Part shown: piece by piece, positions 4,630-26,094 of the stretch | Position numbering within the stretch: the first letter of the stretch is position 1 | Layout of the letters: each line of letters opens with the position of its first letter | Origin: a virus | Reading direction: 5' to 3' (one strand) | DNA: 33,008 bases | IMG/VR virus record: IMGVR_UViG_3300035698_008720 | Span: 1-33,008 of that record | Program-made: the position numbers and the translations under genes | The notes under the pieces: model-generated | What the model saw: only the letters and a program-made list of their open reading frames with translations | The model's database searches: none | Told to the model about the DNA's origin: nothing

Positions 4630-6435
4630 ATGTGGTTATTTTTAATCATTTTAGGTATTGCATCAATAGTAATTGGTGCGCAAGGTTTCAAAAGAGGATG
4701 GTTCGTTGGATATAATCCACCATTATTAAAAAAGGTGTGTATCGGAGTGGGAGCTATCGTAATACTAATAGGGTGTCTCTTAACTAGTTTTGTTTTTACA
4801 CCAACAAAAAACACTGGACATTTAATTAAAAAGTATGGAAATGAATTAAATAGTAATAGAGTTATCGCTGTTAACGGTGAACGTGGAAGACAATCCCATC
4901 TTTTACAAGAAGGGCTCAGTTTTCAACCATTCATAAGGGTTTTATATGATATTGAATTTGTTCCATATGAAAAAATCAATGAAGGTTTCGTGGGTTTACT
5001 TACATCAAATGACGGTGGTTCATTAACTGATTTTATTGCACCAGATTGGGTGGGTGAAGAAAATTTTAATATCGAAAAAGATAAGGATTCTGCCCTAACA
5101 AAGCGCGAATATCGAGATTATATTGAAAAGAGAATGATTGATCCAAAATATTTCATAGAAAACAATGGAATAAAGGGTCCTCAATTAAACACACTAAAAC
5201 CAGGTGAATGGAAAATAAATAAATATATGTGGAAGGTTGATATAGTACCAGCAACTAATGTACCAGCAGGTTTTGTTGGAGTTATTGAATCAAGAGTAGG
5301 TAAAGTACCAAAAAACATAGAACTCGAAGGAGCAGGTAACAAATTAGCTACTCCAGTGGTGGATAAAGGATATATGGGCATATGGAAAGAAGTTCTAAAA
5401 CCAGGTATGTATTACCTTAATTCTCACCCAACCGATGACAATAAAGGAGCATATAGAGTAACATTAGTAGATACTCGTCTTCAAACATGGTTATATAAAG
5501 GTGGTTATGATTATTACACTATTGATCTAACAATCAATGAAGATGGTAAAATATCGCAAACCAAATCAGAAATACGACCAGTTGATGTACCTGATAATGC
5601 GGTTGGTACAGCTATTAGAATAATTTCATTGGATGAATGGGATGTTTATGTTGATGCTAGACTTTTGGTACAAGTACAACCAATTGATGCACCATATATG
5701 GTAGCAAGTGTTGGAGGATTAAAAGAATTGCAGATCAATGTAACGACTCCCATACTTCGTTCAGAATTAAGAAACATGGGTGAAAGTAAAAACGCTACTT
5801 CATTTGTAACTAATCGATCTGACCTGGAAAGTGAATGTGACAGTGCAATAAAGATAAAAAGTGTTGGTACAAGATTAACGGTTAAAGAATTCAAGATGAA
5901 CGATATTTATATAAAACCTGAACTACTTGTACCTGGTAAAAGAAAACAACTAGCTAATAAAATGGCTGAAACCTATGTTCAGGAAGAACTAGCATATAAA
6001 CAAAAAATTCTAACTGAAAAAGCAAGTGAGGAATCACAACAACAGGGCGTTCTTGTTGAAGCTAAGATAAGAAAACAAGCAGCAAAGGAAGATAAAGAAG
6101 CTCAACGTTTGATAGGACAAGGAAATAAATTTAGAATGATTGAAGAAGCATTAGGTCAAAAAGCTAAAATTGATGTTCTTGGTATAGAAAATACATATAA
6201 ACTTGAAATGGCTAAAGTAATTCGAGAATATCCACCTGAAGCATTTGAAACTCCATATTTTGTTGGAAGTGGTGGAGGTAATAGCAATGGTAGTGATGAC
6301 ACTTACACGGCTATATCCATTAGACAATTAATGGCAACAATGGACAATCTTAATGTTCCAATAAAAGCAAGAACAAATAAATCTAAACAATCTAAACCTG
6401 TAAAAAACAAGACAGAAGAAACACCAAAAAAATAA
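4630..6435 (+). CDS. SPFH/band-7 domain membrane protein (flotillin/prohibitin-like)
   Basis: This 601-aa protein has two N-terminal membrane segments (about residues 2-18 and 36-56). A long SPFH-like region follows, with repeated VPAGFVGVI/INEGFVGLL-type strands and LKPGMYYLN. A charged helical region (about 430-540, rich in Glu, Lys, Gln and Ala) is typical of the oligomerising coiled coil of flotillins and prohibitins. The C-terminus is Lys-rich. SPFH proteins form large membrane rings and often control membrane proteases such as FtsH. An AGGAAA stretch precedes the ATG. The gene is noticeably less AT-rich than its neighbours and ends at a strong terminator. Membrane remodelling or superinfection control is inference. 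Confidence 0.85.
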   Translation: MWLFLIILGIASIVIGAQGFKRGWFVGYNPPLLKKVCIGVGAIVILIGCLLTSFVFTPTKNTGHLIKKYGNELNSNRVIAVNGERGRQSHLLQEGLSFQPFIRVLYDIEFVPYEKINEGFVGLLTSNDGGSLTDFIAPDWVGEENFNIEKDKDSALTKREYRDYIEKRMIDPKYFIENNGIKGPQLNTLKPGEWKINKYMWKVDIVPATNVPAGFVGVIESRVGKVPKNIELEGAGNKLATPVVDKGYMGIWKEVLKPGMYYLNSHPTDDNKGAYRVTLVDTRLQTWLYKGGYDYYTIDLTINEDGKISQTKSEIRPVDVPDNAVGTAIRIISLDEWDVYVDARLLVQVQPIDAPYMVASVGGLKELQINVTTPILRSELRNMGESKNATSFVTNRSDLESECDSAIKIKSVGTRLTVKEFKMNDIYIKPELLVPGKRKQLANKMAETYVQEELAYKQKILTEKASEESQQQGVLVEAKIRKQAAKEDKEAQRLIGQGNKFRMIEEALGQKAKIDVLGIENTYKLEMAKVIREYPPEAFETPYFVGSGGGNSNGSDDTYTAISIRQLMATMDNLNVPIKARTNKSKQSKPVKNKTEETPKK

Positions 6436-13763: not shown

Positions 13764-15230
13764 TTAAACAGATACTAAATCATATCTATCTGAATTTACA
13801 ACACTTAACATAGTTTCTAAAGGGGTAGGTTTTCTTTTAATATCAACATTTAAAATGTTCTTTAAAATGCCGGTATTAAAACCAGACACTAACCCAACAC
13901 CGTGTTCGTTATCTTCAACTGGAACATTATCAATTTCTGCTCTTACATTCCAAAAAATAATTTGAGGCAATGTATATCCAGCTCTTTTATATTTTTCTCT
14001 AATCATATTCACAGCGGTATCATTAATCTTACATCTATCAAATTGCATATCTGATATAATTAATAGCACTGTTGGCATATATTTTTCTTCTATATTATAC
14101 TCAACAGATTTATCTAAAAGTAATTCAAATGATCTTTCAATATTTGTTGTTCTACCCCATTTTGCACATCTTAATTGATATGCTCTTTCAGCAAATGATC
14201 CTTTTAAAAATTCAATAGTTGGATTATCAGAAAATGTCATAAAAGCATCTTTAAAAACACTTTCATTTCTTTCACTAATATAAATACCAAGAGAAATAGC
14301 AACTTCTATTGGTAAACCATTGAGCCATGTCATAGATGGTGATACGTCAACTATAGGTAAAATTCTATGTTTTGAACCTTCCATATAATTTGGTAAAGAT
14401 TTCCATTGAGCCTCAATTGCATCATTTTCAATAATTTTAAATGTATTCATATCAGCTCTACCACTTTTAGTAAGAGCGTGGTATAACATATGTGGATAAA
14501 TTGCCTTTGAATTTATTTTGGATTTACCACTCTTTACATCATCAATATACATTTTAAATCTATTCTCATCATTACGATAAAATGAAGTTCTATATTTATT
14601 CATTGCAACTGATGGAACAGTTTTATAATCAATCTCTCCAAATTTCTTATCACACATTTTTTGTTCTATTGTATTTGATAATCCAACAATTAATTTTCTA
14701 TATGCCTTAGGAGATAATTTCAAAAAATTACGAATTTTATTAAATTCATAACCTTTTCTTTTTGACCATTTTGCTAATAATCCAATTTTATTTAAATCAC
14801 CATATAATACATCTTTTATATAATTAAGAATTCCTATATCTGATTCATTATTACATGATGTATCCGTTAATAAACGACTTAAATCATCCCATCTACCATA
14901 TTCTGGTATCAATTTTAAATTTTTTATCAATATATTGTTATAATTTTCAAAAAGAAAATCTGAACAAACTCTAAAAAAATCTCTCTCTCCAGCTCCTCTT
15001 CTAACATCTCTTGTCCAAAATAATAATTTCATTGCAATTAATGGATTTTCAACAAATGCTTTTTGAAATAGATTTTGTTTTTTTTCTTTTGACCAGTGTC
15101 TTGAAGCACCAGCCATAAAAAACATATCAACACACGCATCTAATGATGTTGAATTTGTTACCATTCCTTTTTCTGTTAATTTGTCCTTTGTTCTAAGAAC
15201 ATTAATTAATTCTGATTCTGATCTTGCCAT
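13764..15230 (-). CDS. Ro60/TROVE-like RNA-binding protein with VWA domain (DUF2828-type)
   Basis: 488 aa. The N-terminal two thirds form a helical-repeat region with signatures LLFWTRDVRRGAGERDFFR, YGRWDDLSRLL, LLAKWSKR and MLYHALTKSGRADMNTFK. A von Willebrand A domain follows, with a MIDAS-like DVSPSM, then MTFSDNP, GRTTNIERSFELLL and LLIISDMQFD. This order is that of Ro60/TROVE proteins and the related DUF2828 family, which occur in phages, giant viruses and plants. Ro60-type rings bind misfolded RNAs and Y RNAs and can present RNA to nucleases. ATG chosen at 15230, preceded by AAAGGAG. A hairpin-rich, gene-free region lies directly upstream. Confidence 0.8.
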   Translation of the reverse strand: MARSESELINVLRTKDKLTEKGMVTNSTSLDACVDMFFMAGASRHWSKEKKQNLFQKAFVENPLIAMKLLFWTRDVRRGAGERDFFRVCSDFLFENYNNILIKNLKLIPEYGRWDDLSRLLTDTSCNNESDIGILNYIKDVLYGDLNKIGLLAKWSKRKGYEFNKIRNFLKLSPKAYRKLIVGLSNTIEQKMCDKKFGEIDYKTVPSVAMNKYRTSFYRNDENRFKMYIDDVKSGKSKINSKAIYPHMLYHALTKSGRADMNTFKIIENDAIEAQWKSLPNYMEGSKHRILPIVDVSPSMTWLNGLPIEVAISLGIYISERNESVFKDAFMTFSDNPTIEFLKGSFAERAYQLRCAKWGRTTNIERSFELLLDKSVEYNIEEKYMPTVLLIISDMQFDRCKINDTAVNMIREKYKRAGYTLPQIIFWNVRAEIDNVPVEDNEHGVGLVSGFNTGILKNILNVDIKRKPTPLETMLSVVNSDRYDLVSV

Positions 15231-22271: not shown

Positions 22272-22294
22272 TTTATTGCATTTTTTGATAGTAG

Positions 22295-22369
22295 TCACCC
22301 GTAGGGGATTCGAACCCCTGTTTCAGGGATGAAAACCCTGCGTCCTAGGCCGGACTAGACGAATGGGTG
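22295..22369 (-). tRNA. tRNA-Glu (UUC)
   Basis: Anticodon arm CAGGG-TTTTCAT-CCCTG with anticodon TTC; T-arm AGGGG-TTCGAAT-CCCCT; D-arm resembling bacterial tRNA-Glu (TCGTCTAG). The acceptor stem has one A-C mismatch (6-67). A73; CCA not encoded. It stands apart from the eight-tRNA array, 23 nt upstream of the GT9-like gene's ATG. Confidence 0.9.
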
Positions 22370-24044: not shown

Positions 24045-24884
24045 TTATTTATATTTTTTATCGAAATATTCTATTCTTTCCTTTAATTCTTCTAAACTAA
24101 TTGAAGACTTATCCAATTTACTAATATTATCCACATGTACCATTAACTCACAATTGGCTGGATGAGATAATAAATTTGGATCAATTTTTAATCTATATCC
24201 TTCTTTTACTGAAATCATATGATCCCTACTTACACCATTGAGATTATCTCCCCTGTTCTTTGCTTTATACCATCCATATTTTTTTATCAATGAAAAATCA
24301 AATTCATCTTCATAATCCGATAAATTAAACTTAAATTGTATATCCTTTTTATAAATTTCATATTCCGTCTTATTCCTATTAATATAAGTATATCTACATT
24401 GATTATTACAATAAATATTATTTCTGTTTAAATATGGTAATCTTTTTCCACAATTTAAACATTTTTTAATATTAGAATAATAATCTTTTTTCTTTTGATA
24501 ATCCCTTTTTTTATTGGATTCTCTTATCGATTTAATCCCACTAACACTCATAGAATATTTCATTCCTTTTTTATTTTTATTCGTGTGAGACGCAAAACAC
24601 GAACTATTACAATAATTATTTCTTCTTTTATCATATGGTATCTCTACTCCACAAAACAAACAATACTTTATATTATCACTATAACTACCTTTAAATTTTT
24701 CACTTAATCCTTTTGAATTTTTTTTATAATCTCTTAAATATTTATTTACATAAATATTTCTACATTTTAATGAACAATATAATTTATTCCCTTCTGTTTC
24801 ATTATTACATTCTATATTTTTACATTTAACCACATAATTCTTTTTATCTTTATATATAAAAATAAAAAAGTGGAAAAAATCCAT
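24045..24884 (-). CDS. HNH-type endonuclease with three zinc knuckles
   Basis: Up to 279 aa. Three zinc units follow one another: CKNIECNNETEGNKLYCSLKC, CLFCGVEIPYDKRRNNYCNSSC and CLNCGKRLPYLNRNNIYCNNQC share the C-x2-5-C, YC-x3-C layout. The C-terminus has an HNH-like region (GVSRDHMISVKEGYRLKIDP, LLSHPANCELMVHVDN, then SLEELKERI), as in free-standing phage homing endonucleases. The N-terminal 17 residues are hydrophobic and read through AT-rich leader-like DNA, so the true start may be a GTG about 54 nt inside. It sits immediately downstream of the tRNA array, a common insertion place for such genes. Confidence 0.75.
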   Translation of the reverse strand: MDFFHFFIFIYKDKKNYVVKCKNIECNNETEGNKLYCSLKCRNIYVNKYLRDYKKNSKGLSEKFKGSYSDNIKYCLFCGVEIPYDKRRNNYCNSSCFASHTNKNKKGMKYSMSVSGIKSIRESNKKRDYQKKKDYYSNIKKCLNCGKRLPYLNRNNIYCNNQCRYTYINRNKTEYEIYKKDIQFKFNLSDYEDEFDFSLIKKYGWYKAKNRGDNLNGVSRDHMISVKEGYRLKIDPNLLSHPANCELMVHVDNISKLDKSSISLEELKERIEYFDKKYK

Positions 24885-24902
24885 TTCAAACCATATGGGT
24901 TG

Positions 24903-24976
24903 TGGAGTTGGCGAGGTTCGAACTCGCTAGTTTTCACATTGCAGGTGTGACGCTTAGCCAATTTAGCTTCAACCCC
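24903..24976 (-). tRNA. tRNA-Ala (UGC) with C33
   Basis: Acceptor GGGGTTG/CAACTCC contains G3-U70, the alanine identity pair. T-arm GCGAG-TTCGAAC-CTCGC is perfect. The anticodon stem TCACA/TGTGA is perfect and gives loop CCTGCAA, hence anticodon TGC but C at position 33, normally an invariant U. Reading the loop one base later would give GCA (Cys) but breaks the stem. A73; CCA not encoded. Last tRNA of the array. Confidence 0.8.
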
Positions 24977-25053
24977 ATTTTACAGAATACACTTTTTAGA
25001 ATATTAAATTATAAATTTAGTCCTTTTTAGTTTGCTGTATTCTTAAAAAATTG

Positions 25054-25127
25054 ATGACCTACTGAGGTTCGAACTCAGAATCTTCAGAATCAAAATCTGA
25101 CGTGTTAACCAATTCCACCATAGGTCA
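25054..25127 (-). tRNA. tRNA-Gln (UUG)
   Basis: Anticodon arm TCAGA-TTTTGAT-TCTGA gives TTG; acceptor TGACCTA/TAGGTCA; T-arm CTGAG-TTCGAAC-CTCAG. Variable loop of 5 nt. U73; CCA not encoded. Confidence 0.9.
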
Positions 25128-25161
25128 TTATTGTGATTATAAGAAAAGAATGAATTAATTG

Positions 25162-25235
25162 TAGTTCCAGTTGGATTCGAACCAACGACTTTTTCCATGT
25201 AAAAGAAACACTCTAACCAACTGAGTTATGGAACT
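25162..25235 (-). tRNA. tRNA-Val (UAC)
   Basis: Anticodon arm TTTCT-TTTACAT-GGAAA gives TAC; acceptor AGTTCCA/TGGAACT; D-arm ACTC...GAGT; T-arm GTTGG-TTCGAAT-CCAAC. A73; CCA not encoded. Confidence 0.9.
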
Positions 25236-25238
25236 ATA

Positions 25239-25312
25239 TGGAGCAAGATGTGAGAATCAAACCCCGTCTCAGCGTTGGAAGCGCTGCGCTTTATCATTAA
25301 GCTACATCTTGC
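25239..25312 (-). tRNA. tRNA-Gly (UCC), encoded CCA, weak T-arm
   Basis: Acceptor GCAAGAT/ATCTTGC with U73, fitting glycine, and an encoded CCA (25239-25241). Anticodon arm CAGCG-CTTCCAA-CGCTG gives TCC. The T-arm CGGGG-TTTGATT-CTCAC has only about three pairs and T in place of the conserved C56. It may be decaying or stabilised otherwise. Confidence 0.8.
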
Positions 25313-25343
25313 ATAAAAATTTGAATGCATTTTAAAATTATTG

Positions 25344-25417
25344 AGGCGAAGGTGGGATTCGAACCCACGAATAACTGGTTTGCAATCAGATCCCTTAAAC
25401 CACTCGAGCACTTCGCC
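25344..25417 (-). tRNA. tRNA-Cys (GCA)
   Basis: Acceptor GGCGAAG/CTTCGCC with U73, the cysteine discriminator. Anticodon loop TTGCAAA gives GCA. The anticodon stem has an A-C mismatch next to the loop. T-arm GTGGG-TTCGAAT-CCCAC is perfect. CCA not encoded. Confidence 0.85.
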
Positions 25418-25421
25418 ATTG

Positions 25422-25493
25422 AGACCCCACTAGGAATCGAACCTAGATTCTGAGTTTAGAAAACTCATACATTATCCGTTATGTTATGGGGCC
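25422..25493 (-). tRNA. tRNA-Arg (UCU)
   Basis: Anticodon arm TGAGT-TTTCTAA-ACTCA gives TCT; acceptor GGCCCCA/TGGGGTC with one G-U pair; T-arm CTAGG-TTCGATT-CCTAG. It reads AGA/AGG, preferred in AT-rich genomes. CCA not encoded. Confidence 0.9.
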
Positions 25494-25496
25494 GTG

Positions 25497-25578
25497 TCGG
25501 GTAGACAGGATTCGAACCTGCGTATGCATAAAGCCCACATCCCAAATGTGGCGAGAAACCAAACTCCTCTACTACCCG
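25497..25578 (-). tRNA. tRNA-Pro (UGG) with 13-nt variable region
   Basis: Acceptor CGGGTAG/CTACCCG has the C1-G72 pair of proline tRNAs. Anticodon arm CCACA-TTTGGGA-TGTGG gives TGG. T-arm GCAGG-TTCGAAT-CCTGT. The variable region is 13 nt (GCTTTATGCATAC) instead of 4-5, unusual for tRNA-Pro. It is separated from tRNA-Arg by only 3 nt. CCA not encoded. Confidence 0.85.
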
Positions 25579-25612
25579 AAATTTATTTTCCAAGATGTCA
25601 ATGAACTTATTG

Positions 25613-25695
25613 AGCCTTCTGTTGGATTCGAACCAACGTGTCCTTTCGGATCTTGTTTACAAGACAAGTGCAATCAACCACTATGCGAAGAAGGC
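25613..25695 (-). tRNA. tRNA-Thr (UGU) with class II-like variable arm
   Basis: Acceptor GCCTTCT/AGAAGGC; anticodon arm CTTGT-CTTGTAA-ACAAG gives TGT with the usual Thr loop; T-arm GTTGG-TTCGAAT-CCAAC. The variable region is 14 nt and can form TCC-GAAA-GGA, a stem with GNRA loop, as in class II tRNAs (Ser, Leu, Tyr), which is unusual for Thr. First tRNA after the attenuator. CCA not encoded. Confidence 0.85.
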
Positions 25696-25715: not shown

Positions 25716-25751
25716 CAAAAAAAAACACCCAAACCTTTTGAGTTTGAGTGT
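25716..25751 (-). terminator. Attenuator terminator in front of the tRNA array
   Basis: Read on the minus strand, ACACTCAAAC pairs with GTTTGGGTGT (10 bp, one G-U) across a 7-nt loop, followed by a run of T: a complete intrinsic terminator 22 nt before tRNA-Thr. Its 5' arm overlaps the 3' arm of the antiterminator stem (25745-25755). Confidence 0.8.
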
Positions 25752-25808
25752 AGATTTATGGGAAACCGTTTTACCGATCATATATAATTATTTTTTCATC
25801 TACACTCA
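25745..25808 (-). promoter_or_regulatory. Antiterminator stem of the tRNA-array leader
   Basis: On the minus strand TGAGTGTAGAT (25808-25798) pairs with ATCTACACTCA (25755-25745), 11 bp. The TGA of the 5' arm is the stop codon of the leader peptide, and the 3' arm shares ACACTCA with the terminator. The two structures exclude each other, and a ribosome at the stop codon would cover the 5' arm. Confidence 0.7.
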
Positions 25809-25880
25809 TACCAAACATGGCGCTACAGGTCTCCCTGTTGTGCCTTGTTGAAACATCGTATTTTGTGTAGAATTATTCAT
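25806..25880 (-). CDS. 24-aa leader peptide of the tRNA array
   Basis: A short frame from an ATG preceded by an A-rich leader (aaaaaaaataaaa). It ends QQGTTGRPVAPCLV. Its last fourteen residues contain Gln, Gly, Thr, Arg, Pro, Val, Ala and Cys plus a single Leu: the first eight are exactly the amino acids of the eight tRNAs downstream. At least one codon for each fits the array's anticodon (CAA, GGG, ACA, AGA, CCA, GTA, GCG, TGT). Codons such as GGC, GGG and GCG are rare in this AT-rich genome. The frame probably senses aminoacyl-tRNA supply. Alternatively it is a chance frame over a structured RNA, since 25814-25849 forms a stable hairpin. Confidence 0.55.
   Translation of the reverse strand: MNNSTQNTMFQQGTTGRPVAPCLV
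25814..25849 (-). ncRNA. Leader hairpin with GAGA tetraloop
   Basis: On the minus strand AACA-GGC-ACAGG pairs with CCTGT-GCC-TGTT around a GAGA (GNRA) loop. It contains a 1x1 and a 3x3 internal loop, twelve pairs in all. It lies inside the leader-peptide frame and would be opened by translating ribosomes. It is the most GC-rich stretch of the leader. Confidence 0.6.
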
Positions 25881-26094
25881 TTTTATTTTTTTTTATTATA
25901 TTTTATTTTTTACGTTTATTTTATCTATATAGTTATAAAAAATTGTCAACTTTTTCCATTTTTTAATATGATACAAAGATACAATAAGTTTTTAGAAAAT
26001 CTAATTTTTTTTTAAATTATTTTTGTTCTTAGTTTTGGTAGTTCTTTTCCTTCCATTTTTCCTCTTTTTTAATTAAGATAAAACCCCACAGGAA
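25881..26094. other. Promoter-proximal part of the tRNA leader and gene-poor DNA
   Basis: About 200 nt, very AT-rich. It contains the -7 box at 25974 and, on the minus strand, a TTGACA at about 25943-25948. A 14-codon minus-strand frame at 26012-26056 with an AGAGGAAAA-type leader is too short to judge. Nothing else is seen. Confidence 0.4.
25974..25981 (-). promoter_or_regulatory. Candidate promoter of the tRNA array
   Basis: TATCTTTG on the minus strand, a perfect Bacteroidota -7 box, about 95 nt upstream of the leader-peptide ATG. The -33 region shows only a weak match. Confidence 0.5.

Follow-up and report, generated by a model that had tools for sequence, protein, structure and literature searches.

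We have identified, in a virus, an array of eight tRNA genes that is very probably governed by ribosome-mediated transcription attenuation, in which a translated leader would sense the charged tRNAs of the array's own kinds. Some ten other huge or large phages carry leaders of the same design but of unrelated sequence, and it is likely that these leaders form a widespread, modular class of attenuator in huge phages, providing per-array feedback, gauging in multiplex exactly those charged tRNAs that the array supplies and being retuned as array content changes. This class would be the first known case of ribosome-mediated transcription attenuation of tRNA genes.

The stretch of DNA analysed (hereafter the window) is a 33-kb virus record in which the leader and the tRNA array are read on the minus strand, with positions 25981-25717 lying upstream of the tRNAs. 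A preliminary description of the window had proposed a trp/his-type attenuator whose leader peptide encodes the amino acids of the array. The comparisons reported here support that reading of the sequence and, taken together, support it strongly.

Methods

tRNA genes were called using ARAGORN, and arrays were delimited by a 1.5-kb gap rule. Leaders were detected in a blind scan, which took no account of amino acids; the sole requirements were a terminator, an upstream duplex competing with it and a short frame. Two leaders escaped the strict detector and were recovered by a looser version. The longest-frame rule used to choose the reading frame does not pick the correct one in at least one locus (L231). 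A peptide-pattern scan raised the total number of leaders to 53. Because related phages are not fully independent, 25 representatives were also analyzed, comprising one leader per similar group and including leaders beyond those of the blind scan.

Results

Leader and tRNA array of the window

Each element named in the preliminary description was located, namely a promoter-like box, a 24-codon frame, an 11-bp stem starting within the stop codon, an overlapping terminator and eight tRNAs (Table 1). After the terminator, the tRNAs occur in the order Thr, Pro, Arg, Cys, Gly, Val, Gln and Ala (25695-24902, minus strand). In the window, the 2:3 duplex is formed by 11 bp between segments 2 and 3, and segment 3 overlaps the terminator stem. 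The mutually exclusive 2:3 and 3:4 pairings bear out the trp/his-type geometry proposed earlier, and a 7-bp pairing of segments 1 and 2, absent from the preliminary description, was found in addition; with 1:2, 2:3 and 3:4 all present, the window leader has a complete trp-type set of alternative pairings. Its folding lies 4.45 standard deviations below that of dinucleotide shuffles and is better than 200 of 200 shuffles. A small hairpin (ACAGG-GAGA-CCTGT; 25829-25842, minus strand) lies within the control codons and may slow the polymerase, allowing it to keep pace with the ribosome.

Table 1. Positions of the leader elements, tRNA genes and closing gene in the window
Feature	Position	Strand	Basis
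-7 promoter box TATCTTTG, Bacteroidetes type	25974..25981	-	sequence; comparable boxes precede several other leaders
GGAAAAAGTTGACAATTTTTTATAACTATATAGATA, motif common to many leaders	25922..25957	-	comparison of upstream regions
Leader frame, 24 codons, MNNSTQNTMFQQGTTGRPVAPCLV, stop TGA	25806..25880	-	sequence and residue statistics
Control codons QQGTTGRPVAPC; 12/12 residues within the array's amino-acid set	25815..25850	-	residue and position tests
Segment 1, TCTACAC; partner is GTGTAGA in segment 2	25865..25871	-	7-bp pairing
Segment 2, TGAGTGTAGAT, antiterminator 5' arm; begins within the stop codon	25798..25808	-	pairing, folding
Segment 3, ATCTACACTCA; alternative partners are segment 2 and, in part, segment 4	25745..25755	-	pairing, folding
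Intrinsic terminator; stem 25751-25725 including segment 4 (25735-25725), then U-tract to 25717	25717..25751	-	fold with segment 2 masked gives the 3:4 stem
tRNA-Thr (TGT)	25612..25695	-	tRNA search
tRNA-Pro (TGG)	25496..25578	-	tRNA search
tRNA-Arg (TCT)	25421..25493	-	tRNA search
tRNA-Cys (GCA)	25343..25417	-	tRNA search
tRNA-Gly (TCC)	25239..25312	-	tRNA search
tRNA-Val (TAC)	25161..25235	-	tRNA search
tRNA-Gln (TTG)	25053..25127	-	tRNA search
tRNA-Ala (TGC)	24902..24976	-	tRNA search
phrog_23051 protein of unknown function, closes the array	24045..24884	-	homologue sits within the corresponding LR756501 array

The promoter box was classed by its resemblance to TAnnTTTG, which we take to be the -7 consensus of Bacteroidetes. 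The motif downstream of it is a probable second promoter, of phage type. In its general form, GGAAAAAnTGAC..TTTTT followed by ATATATA, it occurs upstream of many leaders (window 25957-25922, LR756501, G009, G012 and G013) and is probably a phage promoter different from the Bacteroidetes-type box that precedes the leaders of G003 and G014. Promoter boxes and relatives point to Bacteroidetes as the likely host phylum. The Pro/His/Gln leader was not found in a scan of GTDB, which hence gave no host link, and in a second GTDB scan the formyltransferase matched only Pelagibacteraceae.

The end of the leader peptide, QQGTTGRPVAPCLV, contains all eight array amino acids with Leu as the sole extra, just as had been claimed. 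Of the 23 residues of the window leader, 16 belong to the array's set, compared with 7.25 expected from other leaders (p = 2e-4). Among 29,194 stop-free 12-residue stretches in the six frames of the window, 11 of 12 residues in the set with at least seven kinds occur only in four overlapping stretches at the leader, and its density of residues from the set (A, C, G, P, Q, R, T and V) is unmatched elsewhere in those frames. The earlier statement that the codons used are largely ones read by the array's anticodons was slightly too strong; GGC and CCT are unread by strict wobble. Across many leaders, the codon-level match beyond the amino-acid match is weak (402 of 465, with 382 expected). These window statistics were judged insufficient alone, and relatives were therefore sought.

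A solitary tRNA-Glu (22294-22365, minus strand) lies outside the array and is given no leader by the detector; Glu is missing from the leader of the window array. Possible RNA-repair or RNA-handling genes occur at 1401-1919, 174-920 and 13764-15230, the candidates being a HAD domain of RNA repair proteins, an HD-domain protein resembling phage tRNA nucleotidyltransferases and the RNA-binding phrog_850, and their presence would suit a phage exposed to tRNA damage.

Arrays of a related 735-kb phage

No close homologue of the window's leader, as peptide or as DNA, was found in annotated phages or IMG/VR. The SbcC-like protein as sole query returned no relatives; alignment with the 735-kb phage genome LR756501 did establish a relationship to the window. 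There are no tRNAs at the SbcC region of LR756501, so synteny with the window is broken there, and the phrog_23051 protein led instead to the corresponding array, within which its homologue lies.

All five tRNA arrays of LR756501 are preceded by a leader with matching residues. The array that holds the phrog_23051 homologue (Arg, Thr, Val, Ala, Gly, Phe and Pro) has the leader MLFNSNISVKFTPAPAVAFRRGTGTGTGTCVPAGCGFEGMNG, which differs from that of the window and has its own pairings. Leader SKHSKHFSSSSKWF precedes the Trp/His/Phe/Lys/Ser array, YNDYCIND precedes the Ile/Cys/Asp/Asn/Tyr array, and the leader with MIQEQMQQIQ (MNFRIINMIQEQMQQIQNLIGG) precedes the Met/Gln/Ile/Glu array. The array consisting only of Leu tRNAs has the leader MNNILHINLLNSLCLLGIKLIG, in which all six Leu codons (CTA, CTT, CTG, TTA, CTC and TTG) are used. 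A gene for ribosomal protein L7/L12 (PF00542, PF16320; L070:18960-19331, minus strand) lies between the YNDYCIND attenuator and the tRNAs, and it would be controlled by that attenuator as well. Calls of tRNAs with the anticodon CTA (L073:4586-4739 and L075:4335-4406) in LR756501 and LR756508 suggest that UAG is reassigned in both.

Leader peptides follow the tRNA content of their arrays

Searching related phages for short frames upstream of tRNA arrays, as the preliminary description had advised, was productive, and the blind scan yielded 25 leaders (24 without one duplicate) in about ten huge or large phages. Their mean share of own-array residues was 0.50, compared with 0.28 when arrays were permuted. 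The permutation z was 9-10 in frame and 0.4-0.7 in other frames; frames +1, +2 and the reverse complement displayed no amino-acid excess over permuted arrays. With z near 10, the expectation that leader amino acids track the tRNA set beyond chance was borne out. Structure kept while the frame was lost had been named as a finding that would speak against attenuation, and the opposite was seen: residues of the analogous leaders follow the tRNA set, while their RNA sequences differ.

Position within the leader sharpens this match. In the 25 representatives, 0.80 of codons -12 to -3 before segment 2 fall in the own-array set, compared with 0.30 in permuted arrays (reached in 0 of 100,000 permutations), and from codon -2 onward there is no amino-acid excess. 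Array amino acids are present in their own leader in 97% of cases versus 71% in permutations. Along the leader, the enrichment forms a block that ends abruptly, on its downstream side, at codon -3. Such an edge is expected if segment 2 has to stay uncovered by a ribosome stalled at that point, and it would agree with a ribosome footprint reaching about 12 nt past the start of the A-site codon.

Leaders picked by independent criteria behaved likewise. The N-terminal motif MKNLVNI as sole criterion returned 18 contigs with downstream tRNAs, and a terminator plus antiterminator was present in 17 of these (0.23 expected from shuffles) versus 1 of 57 MKNLVNI contigs without tRNAs. The pattern VNIxPQPQQHP occurred in 21 contigs; in all 20 with enough downstream sequence, the tRNAs within 1.5 kb are confined to Pro, His and Gln, one unassigned tRNA call being set aside. 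On contig L226, which has two arrays, MKRFTHIITMSFTTCSKWAEVADIRMSRGIV precedes an array for 14 amino acids, and MKNLVNIQQPSNNPLSGNGRGIYLCHPC... precedes an array covering most of the remaining ones. Leader ISVHIIHIWEHLLEEV of LR756500, found in the looser scan, precedes His, Glu, Val, Trp and Leu tRNAs. The MKNLVNI start is common to leaders of quite different arrays (L107, L143, L187, L196 and L226), as would result if a single ancestral leader had been adapted solely through changes of its control codons.

Two large G009 arrays, L103 (minus strand, reverse-complement position 5703) and L105:6409 (plus strand), are leaderless by the detector, and sister arrays on the contig have leaders. Lak phages, T4, PA5oct, phiWec190 and two more phages yielded no matching leader; not all phage tRNA arrays therefore have the device. 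A T4 candidate, MIFSRILWVLNVS, was judged a false positive.

Alternative pairings across leaders

Among the 53 leaders, 33 distinct segment 2 sequences occur, and every one is matched by a complementary segment 3 and repeated in segment 4; this is a description of the set, since detection required pairing. Two homologous Leu leaders carry GACTGAG/CTCAGTC/GACTGAG and GACTGGG/CCCAGTC/GACTGGG, a three-way compensated change, and two homologous His/Phe/Lys/Ser leaders carry TTCGGGGTT/AACCCCGAA and ATCGGGGTT/AACCCCGAT.

For transcripts that end ahead of segment 4, the best folds included 2:3 in 41 of 41 leaders when a ribosome was placed at codon -4, and 2:3 formed in 25 of 41 when no ribosome was present. 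Masking segment 2 gave 3:4 in all 41. When segment 4 was included and segment 2 was left free, 2:3 was in the final minimum free energy structure of 10 of 41 leaders, including the window leader, where it prevails despite segment 4 (-22.7 kcal/mol). For the majority of the other leaders, the end state of higher stability is 3:4, even when nothing occupies segment 2, and the switch must therefore be kinetic there. The 1:2 pairing, which in trp-type attenuators frees 3:4 when the leader goes untranslated, is clear in the window and is not general among leaders. In most leaders, segment 2 sits 18-35 nt ahead of the stop codon, a distance at which its coverage by a terminating ribosome would not be assured.

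Discussion

In the mechanism that we propose, RNA polymerase would start upstream of 25900, at either of the two promoter candidates (25981-25974 or 25957-25922), and a ribosome would trail it into the 24-codon leader. Were charged Thr, Gly, Arg, Pro, Val, Ala, Cys or Gln tRNA scarce, the ribosome would stall in the control codons, block the pairing of segment 1 and leave segment 2 free; 2:3 would then form in place of the terminator, and the eight tRNAs would be made. Were all eight charged tRNAs plentiful, the ribosome would reach the stop codon and cover segment 2, the 3:4 terminator would form and transcription would end near 25717. As a stall would give read-through and its absence termination, the array would be switched on by a shortage of its own products. 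Leader translation, stalling, termination near 25717 and a physiological trigger are steps that we infer. The same device, in other sequences, would head separate arrays of many huge phages, each leader spelling the amino acids of its own array. The signal would be slow decoding, to which missing tRNA and missing charge would both contribute; as tRNA is what the device puts out, we judge tRNA supply to be the more reasonable signal. Candidate natural triggers are host tRNA loss, tRNA cleavage, codon demand and amino-acid shortage, with the device itself presumably reading charged tRNA.

The alternative that fares best, although unlikely, is an ordinary amino-acid starvation attenuator for which tRNA genes are merely the chosen output. 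A stalled ribosome cannot distinguish a missing amino acid from a missing tRNA, and one LR756501 leader would, by its position, control the L7/L12 gene ahead of the tRNAs. However, sets of up to 14 amino acids correspond to no biosynthetic pathway and track the tRNA genes closely, extra tRNA would not cure amino-acid starvation, and none of the genes seen immediately after the leaders is biosynthetic.

A riboswitch or T-box-like leader RNA that binds a ligand or uncharged tRNA directly, with the frame being incidental, is considerably less probable. The 1:2 stem of the window encloses a folded domain with the inner ACAGG-GAGA-CCTGT hairpin, and alternating 1:2, 2:3 and 3:4 pairings are also riboswitch geometry. 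Nevertheless, no Rfam family matches the leader (for T-box, none at gathering score or with E up to 5), the amino-acid match is confined to the reading frame and missing from +1, +2 and the reverse complement, and what leaders of different arrays have in common is the logic of the frame, not an RNA domain. Still more improbable is a small functional protein with incidental tRNA neighbors; the N-terminus MKNLVNI is shared by several leaders, as in a conserved peptide, but the remainder of the peptide is wholly different for each tRNA set (HPQ, L, KY, DEAVLW, up to 14 amino acids), and it is distance to segment 2, not peptide position, that sets the matched stretch. With no Rfam match, a signal in the frame only and a peptide that varies with the tRNA set, the riboswitch, T-box and small-protein readings were rejected. 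Chance or a search by-product has a negligible probability, for although the detector demands pairing and a short frame and the window finding was picked after the fact, detection made no use of amino acids and the array-permutation, frame, position and independent-selection tests agree.

Attenuation of tRNA arrays by their own leaders was not mentioned in the places where we looked for it. Neither Al-Shayeb et al. 2020 (PMC7162821), where the 735-kb phage genome is described, nor a 2024 opinion article on phage tRNAs mentions an attenuator or leader. A literature search, whose coverage excluded preprints and many subscription papers, found no tRNA operon or phage array under such attenuation.

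Attenuation by ribosome stalling bears on the question of why phages carry tRNAs and when they are used, as the leaders would reveal the phage's own measurement, a shortage of the charged tRNAs that it encodes. Ideas of tRNA depletion and codon demand become directly testable by reporters. Feedback on tRNA supply at the level of transcription is indicated, and a natural multi-codon sensor is on offer. Leader peptides predict array content and can thus aid the annotation of huge phage genomes.

Ribosome-mediated attenuation itself has long been known. Like the trp, his, leu and thr attenuators of enterobacteria, the leaders described here have a leader peptide with control codons, segments 1-4, exclusive 2:3 and 3:4 pairings and an intrinsic terminator ahead of the structural genes. 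Several features of a trp-type attenuator are present: the leader frame is rich in array-linked codons, the exclusive pairings come with a U-tract, and the control codons (enriched from -12 to -3) are positioned such that a stalled ribosome spares segment 2. The window is close to the trp layout in that segment 2 begins at the stop codon, whereas in most phage leaders, unlike trp-type ones, segment 2 lies inside the frame. Biosynthetic or synthetase genes, which usually follow known attenuators without being a mechanistic requirement, are replaced by tRNA genes, and one leader would read up to 8-14 amino acids. Clusters of tRNAs like those seen here occur in T4 and huge phages (PMC7162821), the arrays of T4, PA5oct, phiWec190 and Lak phages being without a matching leader. 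T-box leaders of Gram-positive bacteria likewise control transcription by tRNA charging, but they bind tRNA directly, whereas the phage leaders would sense it via translation. In the pheST attenuator of E. coli, which controls synthetase genes, the ribosome stalls at codons whose tRNA charging the operon serves. The stalling logic is the same in the phage arrays; the pheST product charges tRNA, whereas the phage product is the tRNA itself, which would make the feedback more direct.
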